Shown here: positions 45,286-59,596 of the stretch, piece after piece
Position numbering within the stretch: position 1 is the first letter of the stretch
How the letters are laid out: the number at the start of each line of letters is the position of its first letter
Source of the DNA: Stappia sp. 28M-7
Lineage (GTDB): Bacteria; Pseudomonadota; Alphaproteobacteria; Rhizobiales; Stappiaceae
Length of the DNA: 64,000 nt
Reading direction: 5' to 3'
Assembly (NCBI RefSeq): GCF_014252955.1
Contig: NZ_JACMIA010000001.1
Span: 930,001 to 994,000 of the forward strand
Made by a program: the position numbers and the translations under genes
The notes under the pieces: generated by a model
What the model was told of the DNA's origin: nothing
The model's input: only the letters and a program-made list of their open reading frames with translations
Database searches by the model: none

Positions 45286-46008
45286 TCAGATCGGTTGCTG
45301 CGCGAGGCCCTTGCCGTGGATCGGACCGGTCGGCAGGTTGGTCGGCGAGCCGCCCTCCGGCTCGAAGGTGATCTCGTAGAGCTGGTCGCGGCGCGGCGGC
45401 GGAAGGCCTTCAACCGACAGGCGCGTGCCCGTTCCGCTCGGCAGCAGCCCGAGCGAGACCGGCGGGCCTTCCTCGGTCGGCTTGGTCCAGACCTGCATGA
45501 CCTGGCCCTGCGGCACGGCGGCGCCGTCCAGCAGGGTGATCCAGGTGGTGTTGTCGGCTGCGCCCTCCACGAGGGCGACCGGCTTGCCGCCGGCATCCAG
45601 CAGGACGGCGACCACGGTCGGCTGCGGCATGGTGAGAAGCGACCAGCCGAGCGCGACGGCCAGAACCAGCGAGGCGGCGAGGCTGGCCAGCGCGGCAAGG
45701 CGCCAGCGGGTGTCTGCAGGCTTGTCGCCGCGGTTCCTGGTGGCAAGTGGAACGACATTACCGGCAGGCTTCTGGGCCTCGGCCGGCGCCTCGTCGAGAC
45801 GCGCGGCGACACGATTCCAGAGCCCGTCGGGCAGGGGAACCTCGTCGGCGGTCGCATCCAGCTCCCCGAAGCGGACGCGGGCGCGCTCCAGCCTTGCGGC
45901 GACCACAGGATCGGCGGCGGCAAGCGCCTCGATCTCGGCCTGTTCCGCCTCGCTGGCGAGGCCGAGCACGACCTCGTCGATGCGTTCATCGAGCGGGCGC
46001 TGCGTCAT
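45286..46008 (-). CDS. RskA-type anti-sigma factor
   Basis: A 240-residue membrane anti-sigma factor. The N-terminal cytoplasmic part (MTQRPLDERIDEVVLGLASE) would bind the sigma factor. A single helix (ALASLAASLVLAVALGWSLL) precedes a periplasmic RskA-like domain (TTWITLLDGAAVPQGQVMQVW). The start overlaps the sigma-factor stop by four bases, so sigma and anti-sigma are coupled. Confidence 0.88.
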   Translation of the reverse strand: MTQRPLDERIDEVVLGLASEAEQAEIEALAAADPVVAARLERARVRFGELDATADEVPLPDGLWNRVAARLDEAPAEAQKPAGNVVPLATRNRGDKPADTRWRLAALASLAASLVLAVALGWSLLTMPQPTVVAVLLDAGGKPVALVEGAADNTTWITLLDGAAVPQGQVMQVWTKPTEEGPPVSLGLLPSGTGTRLSVEGLPPPRRDQLYEITFEPEGGSPTNLPTGPIHGKGLAQQPI

Positions 46009-46538
46009 GACAGGCACTCCCGCAGCTGCGTCAGGCCGCGCCGGAGCCAGGCCTTCACCGAGCCGAGCGGCGCCTTCATCCGTCCGGAAATCTCGCCATG
46101 GCTGTAGCCGAGTACGTAGGAAGCAAGGATCGCCATGCGCTTGCTCGGCTCCAGGGCGGACAGGCAGCGCCTGAGGTCGCTGTTGGCATCCAGCCGGTGA
46201 TAGGCGTCTTCCAGCACGCTTTCGTCCGCCGCCTCGTCGAAGGCCTCCATGTCGCCATGCGGCACATCCCTCTCGCCCTGGCGCAGCAGGGTAAGGCAGC
46301 GGTTGCGCAGGATCGTGTAGATCCAGCCCGTGGCGCTGCCGCGCGCGGGATCGAACTGGCCGGCGTTGCGCCACAGCGCGACGAAGCTTTCCTGCACCGC
46401 GTCCTCGGCAAGGTCGCGGCGGCGCAGCATGCGCAGCGCAACGCCGAGCATCCGCTTGCCTTCATGGTCCATCAGGGTCTTCAACGCGGCACGGTCACCG
46501 GCGGCGCAGGCTGCGACAAGGGCGCTGTGGTCGATCAA
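46005..46538 (-). CDS. ECF-family RNA polymerase sigma factor
   Basis: A 177-residue ECF sigma factor. Region 2 is RDLAEDAVQESFVALWRNAGQF and region 4 is YVLGYSHGEISGRMKAPLGSVKAWLRRG. The start is a TTG at 46538 after AGCGGGACC; no ATG gives a family-like N-terminus, and the open frame above it is low-complexity. Paired with RskA anti-sigma, it belongs to the SigK-like group. Target promoters are not identified. Confidence 0.88.
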   Translation of the reverse strand: MIDHSALVAACAAGDRAALKTLMDHEGKRMLGVALRMLRRRDLAEDAVQESFVALWRNAGQFDPARGSATGWIYTILRNRCLTLLRQGERDVPHGDMEAFDEAADESVLEDAYHRLDANSDLRRCLSALEPSKRMAILASYVLGYSHGEISGRMKAPLGSVKAWLRRGLTQLRECLS

Positions 46539-46795
46539 GGTCCCGCTCTTCTTCAGCCGGTCATCGCGAACCTGCCCGGGAGGAGGGGCTGCGGCTCGCC
46601 TCGCAGTCGGTGCCGATGGTGGAGCTTTCGCTGCGACTTGGCAAAGGAAATCCGGAGCAGCTGGCAACCGGTCCGCCTCGGCGGGAACCTGCGGAAAGGT
46701 GTGGGATGCCATGGCGATGCACCGGCGATGCGGGGAGGAGGGGGCAGGGGCGGCACCCGGCGGCGCCGACCCCGAAAACCCGAAAGCCTCGCGGC

Positions 46796-47599
46796 TTACT
46801 TCGCCGTCATGAACGTGATGTCGCGCACGCTTACGCCCTCGGCACCCTTGAGCGGCCAGCTCTGGGTGATCTTGCCATCCTCGAGCGAGACGGTGTGCAG
46901 CCCGCCGCCAGAGACGAGCCAGGCGGTGTTGGTGCCGGCCTCGTCGGTGGCAATGTCGAAGGCATAGACGTCGGAACCCTCGATGCCGAGCTTGCCGACG
47001 GCTGCCAGCGTGCCGTCATTGGGTGAGGTCTGACGGATCAGCGCGACGATGGTGCTGTCGATGTCGTACATCGCCGTCTTCTCGGGCTTGCCGAAGGAGT
47101 TGGTGTAGGCCGCCGCCACGATGGCCGGCGCCTCGCCCGCATGCATGTCGGCCGTCTCGAAGGCAAGGCTGCCGTCAACGGTCACGGCGCCGCTTTCGAT
47201 GTCGACGCGGTGATTGGTGGTGCCCGACATGAAGCGCAGCTTGTTGGCTGCCGGGTTGAAGTCGACGATCACGGCGCCGCCCTCGGCGACGGGCAGTTCC
47301 TTGTCCATGGTGGAGATCACCGTGGTGGCGCCGGTCTCGGGATCGATCTCGACGATCTGGAACGTCTCGGTCACGCCGATCAGCTGGCCGTTGGCCGGCC
47401 GCAGGTCGATGCCGAGCAGGCGGTCGACGCCCTGGGCATCCATGGTGGCGGTGACCGTGGCGGTGGATGCGTCGATCTTGTGAAGGGTCTTGTCGCCCGA
47501 CAGGGCGATTGCGGTGAGGCCGTCGTTGTCCGCAGCATGAGCTGCCGTGGCGAGGGCGATGAGTGCGGTGGTCGCGAGAGCGAAAGTCGTCCTGGTCAC
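46796..47599 (-). CDS. DUF4394 secreted protein
   Basis: A 267-residue protein with a signal peptide (TFALATTALIALATAAHAAD) and repeated beta-like strands of the DUF4394 family (LTAIALSGDKTLHKID, FNPAANKLRFMSGTTNHRV). The family is often linked to ECF sigma/RskA pairs, as here. GTG 47599 with GAGGA upstream was chosen. The biological role is unknown. Confidence 0.82.
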   Translation of the reverse strand: MTRTTFALATTALIALATAAHAADNDGLTAIALSGDKTLHKIDASTATVTATMDAQGVDRLLGIDLRPANGQLIGVTETFQIVEIDPETGATTVISTMDKELPVAEGGAVIVDFNPAANKLRFMSGTTNHRVDIESGAVTVDGSLAFETADMHAGEAPAIVAAAYTNSFGKPEKTAMYDIDSTIVALIRQTSPNDGTLAAVGKLGIEGSDVYAFDIATDEAGTNTAWLVSGGGLHTVSLEDGKITQSWPLKGAEGVSVRDITFMTAK

Positions 47600-47757
47600 T
47601 TGAACTGATCCTCGTATCCATGGGCTGCGGCCGATCCGCAGCACCTGCACACCCGTGACTCTCCCAAGAGGCCGTTTGGATGCAGGGACCGCGAAAAAAA
47701 TTCGAACTGCCGGAAACGAATGACGGAAAATGTGCGAGATTGACGCAGGTGAGGGTG

Positions 47758-47771
47758 ATCAGATGTCTGAT
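47758..47771. promoter_or_regulatory. Perfect 14-bp palindrome between DUF4394 and nadA
   Basis: ATCAGATGTCTGAT is a perfect dyad in the divergent gap. It is upstream of the nad promoter and about 160 bp from the DUF4394 start. A repressor site for either gene is possible; no partner is known. Confidence 0.35.
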
Positions 47772-47828
47772 TTAAAAAGGATTTTTTGATTTGTCTTACA
47801 AAAAGCCGGGTCAGGACCAATAAACGCA

Positions 47829-47857
47829 TTGGCAAGGAACGCGCACGTGCCTATATA
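47829..47857 (+). promoter_or_regulatory. Candidate nadABC promoter
   Basis: TTGGCA (47829-47834), 17 bp, then TATATA (47852-47857); the flanking CTATAT also fits the rhizobial -10 form. The first NadQ-like operator starts inside the -10. The transcript would begin near 47864, giving a leader of about 165 bases. Confidence 0.65.
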
Positions 47858-47874
47858 TGCCCCGTGGGAGCATA
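47856..47874 (+). promoter_or_regulatory. NadQ-like operator 1
   Basis: TATGCCCCGTGGGAGCATA, a 19-bp imperfect palindrome (TATGC...GCATA) overlapping the -10 box of the nad promoter. A similar site lies 55 bp downstream. The likely binder is the COG4111 regulator at 57.3-58.3 kb, by inference. Confidence 0.6.
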
Positions 47875-47910
47875 AGCGTCGGCTAAGGACGCGTTTTTTA
47901 AACGGCAGTT

Positions 47911-47929
47911 TATGCTCAAAGTGAGCAAA
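47911..47929 (+). promoter_or_regulatory. NadQ-like operator 2
   Basis: TATGCTCAAAGTGAGCAAA shares the frame TATGCyC...GAGCA with operator 1 and contains the perfect TGCTCA-AAG-TGAGCA (47913-47927). Sites 55 bp apart, about five helical turns, would allow two dimers to interact. Confidence 0.65.
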
Positions 47930-48031
47930 ATGACCGGATCGACCGAAAGGTCTCGCAAAACGGTCATGTTGCTCGGTAGAGGTCGGGCCCTGCGCGAGCT
48001 TGAGGCCCGGACGAAGTCAAGGGAGGTCGTC

Positions 48032-49117
48032 ATGGCCACCATCGCACTCGATATCGGCAGCAATGCCGGATGCTCGACCGCCGCACCCGCACGGGCCAGC
48101 GGCTATTCGATGCTGCCGCGTCCTCATCTTGCCTACACGCCGGAAGTCGCGGAAGCGACCGCGCCGATCTACGAGAAGGTCCGTCACCTGATTCCGGAGA
48201 TCGAGTGGCCGGTGCTTGCTCCCGTGATCCACGAGATCAACCGCCTCAAGAAGGAGCGGAACGCCGTCATCCTCGCCCACAACTACATGACGCCGGAGAT
48301 CTTCCACGGTGTCTCCGACATCGTCGGCGACAGCCTGGCGCTGGCGAAGGAAGCGGCGAAGACCGACGCGGACGTGATCGTCCAGTGCGGCGTGCACTTC
48401 ATGGCCGAGACCGCCAAGATCCTCAATCCGGACAAGACGGTCCTGATTCCGGACATGAATGCCGGCTGCTCGCTGGCCGAGTCGATCACCGCCGCCGACG
48501 TGCGGGCCTTGCGCGAAAAGCACCCGGGCGTGCCGATCGTCACCTATGTGAACACCTCGGCCGACGCGAAGGCCGAGTGCGATATCTGCTGCACCTCGGC
48601 CAATGCCGTGCAGGTGGTGGAGAGCCTCGGTGCGCCGCGCGTGCTGCTGATCCCCGACCAGTACCTGGCGGCCAATGTGGCACGCCAGACGGATGTCGAG
48701 ATCCTGACTTGGGCCGGTGCCTGCGAAGTGCACGAGCGCTTCACCGCGGCGGAGCTGCGCGAATACCGCGAGATCGAGCCGAGCGTGAAGATCATCGCTC
48801 ACCCGGAATGCCCGCCGGAAGTGGTCGACGAGGCCGACTTCACCGGGTCCACCGCCGGCATGATCGACTGGGTCAAGACCAATCGGCCGGAGAAGGTGAT
48901 GCTGGTCACCGAGTGCTCGATGGCCGACAACATTGCCTCGGAGACGCCGGGCGTGGATTATGTCCGTCCGTGCAACCTGTGCCCGCACATGAAGCGCATC
49001 ACGCTGTCCAAGATCCTGGACTGCCTGCTGGAAATGCGGGATGAGGTGACGGTCGATCCGCAGGTCGCCGCCCGGGCGCGCACTGCGGTCGAGCGGATGA
49101 TCAACCTCAAGATGTGA
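48032..49117 (+). CDS. nadA: Quinolinate synthase
   Basis: A 361-residue 4Fe-4S enzyme that makes quinolinate from iminoaspartate and DHAP. Cluster cysteines are in [20 protein letters not shown] and [13 protein letters not shown] 48032 has a strong GGGAGG nine bases upstream, so the 40-codon extension is not coding. It is the first gene of nadABC and the substrate is supplied by nadB. Confidence 0.96.
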
Positions 49118-49243: not shown

Positions 49244-50872
49244 ATGACGTCGCCACGTCCCGTGACTTCCCATATCGATGATGTCGTCATTCTTGGCGGC
49301 GGTCTGACCGGCCTGTTCTGCGCGCTCAAGCTGGCGCCGCGTCCGGTGACGATTCTCTCCGCCTCTCCCATCGGCGAGGGCGCGTCCTCCGCATGGGCGC
49401 AAGGCGGTATTGCCGCAGCCGTGTCCGACGAGGACAGCGCAGCCGCTCACGCAGCCGATACCATCGCCGTCGGCGGCGGGCTGTGCGAGGAGAAGATCGT
49501 CCGCCTGATGACCGAGGAAGCGGGCGAGCGCGTTCGCGATCTTCTCGGCTACGGCGTTCCCTTCGACATGGACCTGGAGGGGCGGTTGCAGCTGTCGCGC
49601 GAGGCGGCCCACTCGATGAACCGTATCGTGCGCGTGCGCGGCGACATGGCCGGTCGTGCGATCATGGACGCGCTGGTCGTTGCGGTGCGCAACACGCCGT
49701 CGATCCGGGTGGTCGAGGGGTATCTGGGCGAAGAACTGCTGCATGAGGGCCGGATCGTCACCGGCGTGCTCGCCCGCCGCCGCGGCGACCGCGAGCGCCT
49801 TGCCTTCCCCGCCCACGCGGTTGTTCTGGCCTCCGGCGGCATCGGGCACCTCTATGCGGTGACGACCAACCCGCCGGAAGCCAACGGCCAGGGCCTCGCC
49901 ATGGCCCTCAATGCCGGCGCGGTGGTCGCCGACACCGAATTCGTGCAGTTCCACCCCACCGCCCTCAATGTCGGCCGCGACCCGGCGCCGCTCGCCTCCG
50001 AGGCGCTGCGCGGCGAGGGCGCAACGCTCATCAACGCCGATGGCCGCCGCTTCATGGAGGCGGTCGATCCGCTGAAGGAACTGGCGCCGCGCGATGTCGT
50101 CGCGAGGGCGGTCTTTGCCGAGAATCTTGCCGGGCGCGGGGCCTTTCTCGATTGCCGCGAGGCGCTGGGCGATAGCTTTCCCGAGCGCTTCCCGACCGTC
50201 TATGCCGCCTGCATGGAGGCCGGCATCGATCCGGTGCGCCAGCCCATCCCGGTGGCGCCGGCCGAGCACTACCACATGGGCGGCGTGCTGACCGACGCCA
50301 ACGGTCGCACCTCTCTCGACAATCTCTGGGCGGCCGGCGAGGTCGCCTCGACCGGTGCCCATGGTGCCAATCGGCTTGCCTCCAACTCGCTGTTGGAAAC
50401 GGTGGTCTTTGCCGCGCGTGTTGCCGAGGACATCCAGAACCAGATGCCCAATCCGCGCACGGCGCACTGGCCGGGCATCGACGATCACATTCAGGAGCCG
50501 AGCCGCCGCAACGAGGTGGAGCGCGAGGCGATCAGCCTGCTGCGCCGGACCATGGCGGACGGTGTGGGTGTGGTGCGCACGGCCGAGGGCCTGACGGGTG
50601 CGCTTGCCGTGATCGACGCGCTGGAGGCGCGCTGCAAGCGTCGCTCGATCCGCAACATGATGACTGCGGGCAAGGCGGTTGCAGCGGCCGCGCTTTTGCG
50701 CCGCGAAAGCCGCGGCGGGCATTCGCGCGCCGATTATCCGCAGGAGGATCCCGCCTTCGCCCGCCGCACCTATCTGACGGCGAAGGACATTGCCGGCGTG
50801 GTGCGAGAGGCGGTGGACAGCGACATCGGCCGCCGGGCCGTCGAGGCCCTGCCGGCCGTCGGAGACGCATGA
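49244..50872 (+). CDS. nadB: L-aspartate oxidase
   Basis: A 542-residue flavoprotein oxidising L-aspartate to iminoaspartate. The FAD-binding [18 protein letters not shown] is N-terminal, and the succinate-dehydrogenase-like active-site region includes [14 protein letters not shown] and RDVVARAV. It follows nadA by 126 bp and overlaps nadC by four bases (ATGA). Confidence 0.95.
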
Positions 50873-51741
50873 TGACCAGTGCTGGAACCAACCTGCCGGT
50901 TCTCCCTGCTCTGATGGTAGAGGACGCAGTGCGCGCGGCGCTGCTGGAGGACTGGGGCCGGGCGGGCGACATCACCGCCCAGGCGACGCTGTCGCCGGAG
51001 ATCGGCGCGCGCGCGGTGATCGCGGCCCGCCGCCCCGGACGCCTGTCCGGTGTCGATCTGGCCGCAGCTGCCTTCCGCCTGAGCGATCCGGCCATCGATG
51101 TCGAGATCCTGGCGCGCGACGGCGACCGGCTGGAGCCGGGCGATCTCGTGATGCGCGTGTCGGGACCGGCACGCGGCATGCTGTCGGCCGAACGGGTGGC
51201 GCTGAACTATCTCGGCCATCTGTCGGGCGTGGCAACGGCGACGGCTGCCTTCGCCGATCTTGTCGTCCACACGAAGGCCCGCATCGTCTGCACCCGCAAG
51301 ACGACGCCGGGCCTGAGGGCTTTCGAGAAATACGCGGTGCGCTGCGGCGGTGGTGCCAACCACCGCTTCGGCCTGGATGACGCGATCCTGATCAAGGACA
51401 ACCACATCGCGGTTGCCGGCGGGGTGCGACAGGCCATCGAGGCATCGCGTCGCTTTGCCGGCCATCTCGTGCGCATCGAGGTGGAGGTCGATACGCTGGA
51501 CCAGCTGCGCGAGGCGCTGGAGGCCAAGCCGGACGTGATCATGCTCGACAACATGCAGCCGGACCGCCTGCGCGAGGCCGTTGCGATCGCCGGAGGGCAG
51601 GTCGTGCTGGAGGCCTCGGGCGGCGTCAGCCTCGAGACCGTTGCGGCCATTGCGGAAACGGGCGTCGACCTGATTTCCGTCGGCTGGATCACCCATTCGG
51701 CGCCGGTGCTGGATCTCGGCCTCGATATCGAGATCGGCTGA
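50869..51741 (+). CDS. nadC: Quinolinate phosphoribosyltransferase
   Basis: A 290-residue enzyme joining quinolinate to PRPP to give nicotinate mononucleotide with CO2 release. Signature parts are [32 protein letters not shown] and [15 protein letters not shown] 50869 overlaps the nadB stop; a second ATG is at 50872. It ends the nadABC operon and converges with the EAL gene. Confidence 0.96.
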
Positions 51742-57359: not shown

Positions 57360-58325
57360 CTAGCGACCGCCGACCCGCAGCCCGAGGGCGGGACGTTCCT
57401 TCAGCACCTCGTGGCGGAAGCGGAACAGTGCGGCCGGGCGTCCTCCCGTCTGGGTCGAGGTCTCGCCGGTGGGTTCCACCAAATCGCCCTTTTCGACGAG
57501 CCGGCGGAAGTTCTGCTTGTGGATGTGCCGGCCGGAGATCGCCTCGACGCAGCGCTGAAGGTCCGTCAGCGTGAAGGCATGCGGCATCAGCTCGAAGATC
57601 AAGGGGCGGTATTTCAGCTTGGTCCGCAGGCGCGAGATGGCGGTCGCCAGGATCCTGCGATGGTCGTGGAGCATCGGCTGGCCAAGAAGAGGCTGGCCCG
57701 CGCGCTCCTGCGCAGCCGGCCGTCCGTCGCGCTGCGCCTCGTGCAGCAGCCCTGCCTCGTAGAGCATCTCGTAGCGGTCGAGGACGCGCTCCTCGTTCCA
57801 CATTCCGTCGGTGACCGAGAAGGCCTGATGGACGCGGTCCTCCCGCGTGTTGCCGCGCGGCGGGCTGTGTTCGGGAACAGGTGCCTCCGCCCAGCGCTTC
57901 AGCGCGGGCAGGATCTCGCGTTCGACCATCGGCGGCATGCCGTCGCGCCAGTCCTCCCAGGGGAAGAACGAGTACCAGGAACGCCACTGCGCATTCTGCT
58001 GGGTGAGGGCCTCGTCCGACTTTGGTGTCTGGCGGGCAAGGGCGAGATAGCCGACCGAGACCACATGGGGCCCGGCGTCGGAATGGATGTGGTGTCGCCC
58101 GCGATCGCCGAACGTGTAGAGCTGCTCCACATAGCCGAGTTTCAGCGCGGTCTGTTCCTCCACCCATTCGCGCAGGCCGATCTCGAATGTCCGGTGGCGG
58201 GTCGGATCGAACGGGCCGAAGGGCAGCGAGGGAACGCTGGTGTTCGGAGGGGCCGCGATGGTGAGAACCTGCGGCTGCGGTGCGGCGACGGAAACGATGA
58301 CGGCGTTGAGACCGATCTCGATCAT
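57360..58325 (-). CDS. nadQ: NAD regulator of the NadQ type (COG4111)
   Basis: A 321-residue protein. The N-terminal half is Nudix-like with a degenerate Nudix box (LREWVEEQTAL), as in NrtR-type sensors that bind but may not cut ADP-ribose or NAD compounds. The C-terminal half has a winged-helix region (LQRCVEAISGRHIHKQNFRRLVEKG then STQTGGRPAALFRF). Matches the remembered COG4111 NadQ family that represses NAD genes in alphaproteobacteria. ATG 58325 overlaps the upstream phosphatase stop. nadABC is about 9 kb away. Confidence 0.82.
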   Translation of the reverse strand: MIEIGLNAVIVSVAAPQPQVLTIAAPPNTSVPSLPFGPFDPTRHRTFEIGLREWVEEQTALKLGYVEQLYTFGDRGRHHIHSDAGPHVVSVGYLALARQTPKSDEALTQQNAQWRSWYSFFPWEDWRDGMPPMVEREILPALKRWAEAPVPEHSPPRGNTREDRVHQAFSVTDGMWNEERVLDRYEMLYEAGLLHEAQRDGRPAAQERAGQPLLGQPMLHDHRRILATAISRLRTKLKYRPLIFELMPHAFTLTDLQRCVEAISGRHIHKQNFRRLVEKGDLVEPTGETSTQTGGRPAALFRFRHEVLKERPALGLRVGGR

Positions 58326-58861
58326 GCGCGCCCCGGACCCGCTCGCGAATCGCTCGGTGCGACCGGCAGGGTAAACGGGGTACCTTCGAAGGCATCCGCG
58401 CCGCGGCCGATGGAGCGGACCGCCTCGACCATCCGGCCTTCGCGCTCCAGCAGCGCGTCGGCAAGTGCTACCAGCCGGGCATTGGGCGTCGCTGACGGCG
58501 AAGCGCGCCGCAGCGCGCCGGCCAGCGCCATCTCGTTCGCCTTGGGAGCAAGCGCGCAGGTCGCAATGAAGGCTGCGGCGGTGGAACGGCTGATGCCGGC
58601 GAAACAGTGAATCACCAACGGGGTTGAGCGGTTCCAGTCGCCGACGAAGTCTAGCAGCTTGCGCACATGCGCTTCCCCGGGAGGGGTCAGTCCCTCGGCG
58701 GGAGCGGTGATGTCGTTGAAGGCGAGGAAAAGATGGTCGTCGGCAGCGATGCTTGCGGGCCGGTCGACCCGCGTGCCTGCGTTGATCAGGGTGATCATTC
58801 TGCGCGCGCCAGTCCGCTCCACTGTTTCCTGCAAACGGGCGAGCGAACAGACGGTTATCAT
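58322..58861 (-). CDS. Tyrosine-phosphatase-like protein
   Basis: A 179-residue protein with the Cys-based phosphatase loop HCFAGISRS (HCx2GxSRS) and a general-acid region DDHLFLAFNDI. It overlaps nadQ by four bases. The family is conserved beside this regulator in related genomes as I recall, but a link to NAD signalling is untested. Confidence 0.82.
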   Translation of the reverse strand: MITVCSLARLQETVERTGARRMITLINAGTRVDRPASIAADDHLFLAFNDITAPAEGLTPPGEAHVRKLLDFVGDWNRSTPLVIHCFAGISRSTAAAFIATCALAPKANEMALAGALRRASPSATPNARLVALADALLEREGRMVEAVRSIGRGADAFEGTPFTLPVAPSDSRAGPGRA

Positions 58862-58951: not shown

Positions 58952-59596
58952 TCACCGGCTTGCCGATGCGCGAACACGCTCGAGTTCGGAAAAGCGGTCG
59001 AGGAAATGTTTCTGTGCCTGCGCGACCGGCAAGGCCCGCAGCCCCAGGCGCGGCGGCTGCCCTCGTCGTTTCGGGAACCCGGTCGGCTCGCCGAACAGGC
59101 GGCAGGCTTCCTCGTCGCTGAAGCCGGCAAGCTCCACTGCTTCGAAATAGGCGGCGACATGGTCGGCCTTCTTGGTCAGCTTGCGCAGGATCGTCGGCGT
59201 CGTTGCAGGCAGGGCGAAGCGCAGGTGAATCGCCGCCTGCAACCGGGCCTCGATCTCCTTGTAGCTGCCGCCCATTACCGCCTTGAACGGCGAGATCATG
59301 TCGCCGATGACGTATTCTGGCGCATCGTGCAGCAGGATGGTCAGGCAGCTGTCGGGCGAAAGGCCCGGCTCCATCTGCAGTGCAAGCCGCTCCACCAGAA
59401 GCGAATGCTCGGCGACGGAGAACGCGTTGTCGCCAATGGTCTGGCCGTTCCAGCGCGCCACGCGCGCAAGGCCATGGGCGATGTCCTCGATCTCGACATC
59501 GAGCGGCGAAGGGTCGAGCAGGTCGAGTCGGCGGCCGGACAGCATCCGCTGCCAGGCGCGCATCGGCTCCGCTTTCTTTCCGGCAGGGCGGCTCAC
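58952..59596 (-). CDS. HD-domain hydrolase (YfbR-like)
   Basis: A 214-residue metal-dependent phosphohydrolase of the HD family, with H...HD...D in VAEHSLLVERL and LLHDAPEYVIGDM. The opening RAWQRMLSGRRLDLLDPS is typical of the alphaproteobacterial branch. GTG 59596 was chosen; ATG 59563 is an alternative. It follows the YgfZ gene by 13 bp, so it is in the same operon; a nucleotide or dNMP substrate is likely. Confidence 0.83.
   Translation of the reverse strand: MSRPAGKKAEPMRAWQRMLSGRRLDLLDPSPLDVEIEDIAHGLARVARWNGQTIGDNAFSVAEHSLLVERLALQMEPGLSPDSCLTILLHDAPEYVIGDMISPFKAVMGGSYKEIEARLQAAIHLRFALPATTPTILRKLTKKADHVAAYFEAVELAGFSDEEACRLFGEPTGFPKRRGQPPRLGLRALPVAQAQKHFLDRFSELERVRASASR

Follow-up and report, generated by a model that had tools for sequence, protein, structure and literature searches.

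The closest described system to the locus considered here is the NadQ regulon, for which PMC5343134, in its available text, gives a 21-bp consensus operator, ttATRCTCannntGAGYATaa, with nadABC as the regulon core. The NrtR repressors carry a C-terminal winged helix homologous to that of NadQ; the N-terminal domain of NadQ is dissimilar to theirs, according to the same text. PurR, GalR, ArsR, CcpA and CodY are described, in the available part of PMC10310618, as roadblock repressors of the elongating polymerase, and roadblocks near a promoter leak more with weaker promoters, perhaps since sigma hinders Mfd (PMC4132739, available part). In yeast, Pol I halts 15 bp before a roadblock protein, and an RNA hairpin further upstream releases it with the aid of a T-rich stretch. 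The Reb1 or Nsi1 roadblock and the T-rich stretch cause Pol I to backtrack, and with a LexA roadblock there is no efficient hairpin termination of Pol I when backtracking is needed (for all three points, PMC12366685 in the sections available).

The window, i.e., the whole 64,000-nucleotide stretch of Stappia sp. 28M-7 that was analyzed, shares with the NadQ regulon (PMC5343134, as far as its available text goes; PDB 7q91-7q94) the regulator, the palindrome and the target operon nadABC (Table 1). An earlier sequence-only reading of this DNA had pointed to the COG4111 gene at 57.4 kb as the regulator, and comparison of its product with PDB 7q91-7q94, entitled 'NADQ transcription factor', revealed that it is indeed NadQ (E 1.6e-80, 7q91; residues 6-317). 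Identity with NrtR was rejected, as the score with the NCBIfam NrtR model was only 68.9 bits, far below its cut-off of 400. NAD or ADP-ribose, named in that reading for a binding check, would fit NrtR as ligand. The title of the 2022 NadQ paper, as given in reference lists, speaks of a 'Nudix-like, ATP-responsive regulator'. ATP reportedly lowers the DNA binding of NadQ, and the ligand is probably ATP rather than NAD or ADP-ribose. The nadQ cluster is preceded by no NadQ site, whether as a consensus match at up to three mismatches or as a match to a looser pattern (see below) at up to one, and self-regulation of nadQ was rejected at these thresholds. Just upstream of nadQ on the minus strand lie a tyrosine-phosphatase-like gene (58322-58861), the stop of which overlaps the nadQ start, and a YfbR-like 5'-nucleotidase-type HD gene (58952-59596; PF12917, E 8e-7); the three genes possibly form an operon linked to NAD metabolism. 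On the other side of the promoter region, genes for an ECF-type sigma factor and a DUF4394 protein (46005-47650, minus strand) are directed away from nadA, and the DUF4394 gene and nadA share one intergenic stretch upstream of each.

Table 1. Features of the nadABC promoter region, the operon and its regulator (positions in the window)
Feature	Position	Strand	Sequence or basis
P1 −35 element	47829-47834	+	TTGGCA; read directly
P1 −10 element	47852-47857	+	TATATA; read directly; 17-nt spacer from −35
O1, predicted weaker NadQ operator over −10 and predicted +1	47855-47875	+	ATATGCCCCGTGGGAGCATAA; 4 mismatches to consensus
Terminator-like hairpin in leader	47876-47892	+	GCGTC-GGCTAAG-GACGC; −6.8 kcal/mol alone
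T-run (U-tract) behind hairpin	47894-47899	+	T6 invariant in 15-sequence alignment
O2, predicted strong NadQ operator in leader	47910-47930	+	TTATGCTCAAAGTGAGCAAAA; 1 mismatch to consensus
Shine-Dalgarno sequence of nadA	48020-48026	+	AGGGAGG; read directly; GGAGGTC invariant in 15-sequence alignment
nadA, quinolinate synthase	48032-49117	+	PF02445 4.4e-115; NCBIfam nadA models above cut-off
nadB, L-aspartate oxidase	49244-50872	+	NF005701, TIGR00551 above cut-off
nadC, quinolinate phosphoribosyltransferase	50869-51741	+	TIGR00078 above cut-off; overlaps nadB end
nadQ (COG4111), regulator	57360-58325	−	PDB 7q91-7q94 match; PF21906 NrtR_WHD

The 19-bp palindrome cores of the two predicted operators, TATGCCCCGTGGGAGCATA at 47856-47874 and TATGCTCAAAGTGAGCAAA at 47911-47929, start 55 bp apart. 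The sequence-only reading had described a TTGGCA-N17-TATATA promoter, a NadQ-like palindrome overlapping its −10 element and a second copy 55 bp downstream, and these claims held on direct reading (promoter at 47829-47857), by coordinates and by comparison with the published consensus as available. The predicted start of P1, deduced from the promoter hexamers, lies at about 47864. A strict sigma-70 scan of 47600-48100 reported 0 promoters; P1 was missed because TATATA lacks the final T demanded by the scan. An ATG is present inside O2 at 47912, and O2 is placed in the untranslated leader because nadA begins at 48032 behind its AGGGAGG. By count, the loose palindrome TATGC-N9-GCATA with up to two mismatches is unremarkable in the window, since 12 matches stand against 9.4 expected and 28 of 100 shuffles reach 12; the sole exact and the sole one-mismatch match of the window are the two sites at nadA. 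In the whole genome of this strain (5.13 Mb), O2 is the only consensus match at up to three mismatches, with a reversed-pattern control giving 2. A scatter of the palindrome over unrelated sites, which the sequence-only reading had named as evidence against itself, is thus not seen in this genome, although in some relatives extra matches, among those listed, are distant from nadA. A looser operator pattern, shaped by hand so that O1 and O2 both fit, returned at up to one mismatch O1, O2 and two other places in this genome (control, 1); one of these (L083) lies within a long coding frame and the other (L084) among unidentified frames, and both were taken as chance because of this placement. As predicted operators, O1 and O2 thus belong to the known NadQ regulon and are ordinary in that respect: since the sites fit the published consensus and the 57.4-kb gene is NadQ, control of nadABC by NadQ would be of an already described kind.

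The same sites were found in related genomes. The family set comprised 87 genomes, with nadA and nadQ each in 85; some nadQ matches are fragments (G017 and G077 here, G108 and G319 in the order). Regions were examined from 70 of the 85 nadA-bearing genomes, the 15 outside the set including G067, in which nadA is cut at a contig end. G031 and G058 are the two family genomes without both nadA and nadQ; the two genes were apparently lost together, and a consensus match at up to two mismatches is also absent there. Such a match is present in 82 of the 87 genomes (reversed control, 4), the five others being G031, G058, G067, G003 and G072, and weaker NadQ sites are present at nadA in G003 and G072. 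More than one match at this threshold occurs in 19 of the 87 genomes, and among the matches listed some are O1 and others are distant from nadA. At up to five mismatches, the 70 family regions have two sites in 66 cases, three in 1 and one in 3, with the upstream O1 found in 67. Across the order, nadA is present in at least 189 of 259 genomes and at least 82 of 110 genera; the order set consisted of 60 nadA genomes, one per genus, chosen among the matches listed, and 54 of these have a site. The link between NadQ and the sites is borne out by these genomes, as a site is present in 53/53 having nadQ versus 1/7 without it, and by the two family genomes that lack both nadA and nadQ. One draft order genome in which no nadQ was found (G099, locus L213) has two NadQ sites and a hairpin at the nadA leader. 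The class set was drawn from 83 of 289 genomes with a match and contained 53 nadQ-bearing genomes outside the order, one per genus; nadA is present in 51, 50 regions were taken (G560 was left out), and 48 have a site. Among 80 named loci, 48 were used, 45 of them in the base-composition profile, and the remaining 32, many from Pelagibacteraceae, were left out.

The earlier reading was right to place NadQ-like sites on nadABC and missed the hairpin and T-run that lie between O1 and O2. These elements span 47876-47899 in the window, and the hairpin ends 17 nt before O2. The hairpin fits the intrinsic-terminator pattern, with five pairs, four of them GC, followed by GTTTTTT, and this pattern occurs at 3 sites in a 501-base stretch versus 0.6 expected. 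A hairpin-operator module was defined by a stem of at least 4 pairs with 3 GC, a loop of 3-10, at least 4 T in the next 9 positions and a gap of 14-19 to the operator. Among the regions with a site, the module is present in 70/70 of the family, 41/54 of the order and 22/48 of the class, and dinucleotide shuffles gave means of 2.4, 2.5 and 1.8 and maxima of 7, 9 and 6, respectively; control windows of equal size elsewhere in the same regions showed a module rate of 1.8-2.4%. By these criteria it is missing in 13/54 order and 26/48 class regions with a site, and a different, earlier hairpin script had found hairpins in 65/70 family regions. The order and class regions were gathered after the pattern had been noticed in the family, and they carry weight because the family genomes are close kin and the source of the idea. 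The gap between hairpin and O2 is 16.9 nt (sd 0.9; 133 modules, within the search window of 14-19) and 17.2 nt (sd 0.58) in the family alone. In the order and the named loci, positions −16 to −11 relative to O2 are enriched in T. The order regions also have a C-rich stretch, often CCC, at −7 to −4 ahead of the proximal operator (at −5, the C frequency is 0.78 over 54 regions); it is perhaps a pause signal or an extra NadQ contact. The hairpins are weak, with median stabilities of −5.8 (family), −8.4 (order) and −7.2 (class) kcal/mol.

The stems comprise 64 different pairs of arms, each of the first four positions is often GC and often CG, and when arms were exchanged between genomes all four positions paired in 7.8% of cases. 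As the arm letters vary freely and swapped arms seldom pair, what is conserved appears to be a structure and not the binding site of a protein; the evidence for this structure is the shuffle test and not self-pairing, because the arms were picked by pairing. An alignment of 15 sequences, from 13 of 14 genomes of the same genus and 2 of a sister genus, has four conserved blocks, namely O1 together with an invariant TATATAT, the hairpin stem and its T6, the O2 operator, and the Shine-Dalgarno sequence; the leader downstream of O2 is not conserved. In the window, the GCGTC/GACGC stem, in another register, replaces the CGGC/GCCG stem of the relatives. The window has another leader hairpin beyond O2, which was set aside, not being conserved in the genus alignment. 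A riboswitch or known leader RNA was rejected, as neither the window stretch nor 8 picked relatives had an Rfam match. The first 41 nt of the leader fold no better than shuffles (z −0.63), and the 146-nt leader has a long O1/O2 RNA pairing (z −4.99), a complementarity that arises because both are copies of one palindrome. A switch between the hairpin and this pairing was not taken as an antiterminator, since the partner is transcribed after the U-tract. The hairpin is not regarded as a terminator of nadQ, because the module is similarly frequent with nadQ directly upstream of nadA (8/11 order regions) and without it (33/43). Ten places with NadQ-like palindromes distant from nadA in relatives were inspected by eye, and a hairpin and T-run at this gap were found at none. 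In three genomes of one sister genus (loci L285, L286 and L289), a CAGYCGA-type hairpin that lacks a T-run is followed, after some 8-10 nt, by a NadQ-like palindrome, distant from nadA.

The sequence-only reading took the spacing of the two sites as a pointer to two-dimer repression. In the ordinary form of such a block, NadQ dimers at O1 and O2 would repress initiation at the level of polymerase binding or clearance, alone or by contact or looping, and the hairpin would be uninvolved. O1 does cover the −10 element, NadQ is described as a repressor in the available text of PMC12421817, and 13 order and class regions have operators 22-36 bp apart without a hairpin, several of them right behind TTGAC; the module is present in 0/13 of these close pairs versus 33/41 of the wider ones. 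In the class, the 50 nt preceding the proximal operator contain TTGAC in 17/26 regions without the module versus 2/22 with it (p 8e-5), and in the order its position does not separate module-bearing from module-less regions (p 1.0). The spacing itself did not sustain the argument. The distance between O1 and O2 is 53-75 in 66 of the 67 family pairs and 168 in one, with an sd of 4.1, and that from O1 to the hairpin has an sd of 3.4 (one outlier dropped from each), while the hairpin-to-O2 gap is near-fixed. The helical phase also varies, with a Rayleigh R of 0.44 for 66 spacings from related genomes and 0.26 for 14 distinct spacings. Looping or stacked dimers, as suggested by the 55-bp spacing, were demoted from the main idea because the O1-O2 spacing drifts. 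Moreover, of the two sites it is O2 that comes nearer the consensus in 65 of the 67 family pairs (tie in two) and in 11 of 14 module-bearing order pairs, but in only 8 of 16 module-bearing class pairs, with O1 better in 5 and a tie in 3. A lone site stands behind the hairpin in 25 order regions (at up to four mismatches), and four named Rhizobium loci (L016, L017, L022 and L027) have the hairpin and one strong site, a second site not being found there, which argues against a fixed contact of two dimers. An initiation block that leaves the hairpin without a role is considered unlikely.

A hairpin with a role of its own need not involve NadQ or P1. The hairpin and T-run are terminator-like and near the predicted 5′ end, and they could set a basal nadABC level as a constant attenuator or as a 5′ protector of the mRNA. 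Such an element need not hold its gap to O2 at 16.9 ± 0.9 nt while other gaps drift, nor need it vanish where O2 is close to O1, although lack of room explains that absence too; this explanation seems decidedly unlikely. Alternatively, the hairpin might end transcripts arriving from upstream, with the true nadA promoter overlapping O2. The best promoter-like pair, scored with weights set by hand, falls at O2 (−10 from −3 to +1) in 10/54 order regions; in the family, it falls around or within O2 (−2 to +16) in 21/70 regions, and nadQ is directly upstream in 11/54 order regions. Against this, the upstream gene in the window is divergent, P1 precedes the hairpin, and the frequency of the module is alike with or without nadQ upstream. 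TTGAC or TTGGC occurs upstream of the module more often than around O2 in the family (27 vs 9, n=70) and the class (18 vs 3, n=22), with the order (6 vs 5, n=41) of no help either way. A TATA-type −10 stands at the left end of O1 in 67/67 family pairs, and a TTGGC/TTGGA −35 lies within 32 nt before O1 in 22/67, namely in 13/13 of the same genus, 3/3 of one sister genus and 6/51 of the remaining pairs. A promoter before the hairpin is held to be the likelier one, and a promoter at O2 decidedly unlikely. From the P1 start predicted from the hexamers, the hairpin would extend from about +13 to +29 and the U-tract from +31 to +36, and O2 would lie downstream of the start, at about +47 to +67.

The reading preferred here, to which we give roughly even chances, is that NadQ controls nadABC at two levels, by a promoter block at O1 and by roadblock-aided termination in the leader at O2. 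A NadQ dimer on O1 would cover the −10 element and the start point and hinder initiation, a known kind of repression, and a second dimer on the stronger O2 would bar the way of polymerase after initiation, as a roadblock. By then, approximately the first 36 nt of RNA would include the weak hairpin followed by the U-tract, and in the polymerase halted by O2-bound NadQ the active site would be located 3-6 nt beyond the hairpin, on the U-tract. Backward sliding of the halted complex may be prevented by the hairpin, which may also aid its release, by which NadQ would make a weak leader terminator effective. When the ligand, probably ATP, removes NadQ, polymerase would pass the weak terminator and nadABC would be made. 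The operators, the identity of NadQ, the hairpin, the T-run, the near-constant gap and the broad conservation are shown by sequence, and the binding, start point, stalling, termination and ligand in this scheme are inferred. This leader termination is proposed on account of the geometry, the Pol I precedent, the leakage of roadblocks and the restriction of polymerase by hairpins. A built-in terminator would help, because roadblocks near a promoter leak more at weak promoters, and a hairpin in the nascent RNA can reportedly limit the movement of polymerase in either direction (Toulme 2005). As for the geometry, a stop 14-15 bp before O2 was computed to place the active site at hairpin +3 to +6, within the T-run; a stop 18 bp before O2 would place it level with the base of the hairpin or 2 nt beyond, which speaks against the mechanism. 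A roadblock just ahead of polymerase can also hinder intrinsic termination, which likewise counts against it. For bacterial release, approximately 8 nt is quoted in the available text of PMC12366685, and the predicted stop falls 2-5 nt short of this. Also against the mechanism stand the LexA result with Pol I, the weakness of the hairpins and of the fold of the first 41 nt, the order and class regions that have a site but no module, the palindromes distant from nadA that lack it, the promoter-like pairs at or around O2, the clear −35 of P1 in 22/67 family pairs only, and the module-bearing class pairs in which O1 is the better or an equal site.

NadQ operators on nadABC are already known, and the hairpin-operator module is the part that is worth a bench test. 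The words 'hairpin', 'terminator' and 'roadblock' are absent from the NadQ literature in PMC5343134 (available text) and PMC11452294, and no description of the module was found in listings and abstracts of the open-licence literature. Like the operators of PurR, GalR, ArsR, CcpA and CodY, O2 would lie downstream of the start, if transcription begins where P1 predicts. Removal by Mfd is described for the roadblock systems of PMC10310618, and in the available text of that source 'U-tract' is absent and 'hairpin' occurs in the reference list only. Attenuators and riboswitch terminators resemble the nadA module in having a terminator-like element in an operon leader; unlike them, the nadA leader is too short ahead of the hairpin to offer much space for a leader peptide or an RNA sensor and has no Rfam match, and the switch would be a DNA-bound protein. 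If the proposal is true, a repressor downstream of its promoter could work jointly with an RNA terminator to release the polymerase that it blocks, which would be one way for a roadblock close to a promoter to escape leakage. The order of hairpin, T-run, approximately 17 nt and operator would then provide a search motif for other repressors, and dozens of natural module variants exist for a direct test. The nearest parallel is Pol I termination at Reb1 or Nsi1, in which hairpin, T-rich stretch and protein site follow in the same order at a set spacing and Pol I stops 15 bp before the site; this is a working likeness drawn from sequence. The Pol I system is eukaryotic, and its backtracking is needed because its hairpin lies 20 nt from the stop, whereas the nadA module is bacterial, shorter spaced and presumably ligand-controlled. 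It is conceivable, with chances slightly short of even, that hairpin, U-tract and operator make up one ancient element, a switchable bacterial roadblock terminator in which a ligand-controlled repressor decides on termination, and such an element would be, by analogy, the bacterial counterpart of the hairpin-and-roadblock termination of Pol I.
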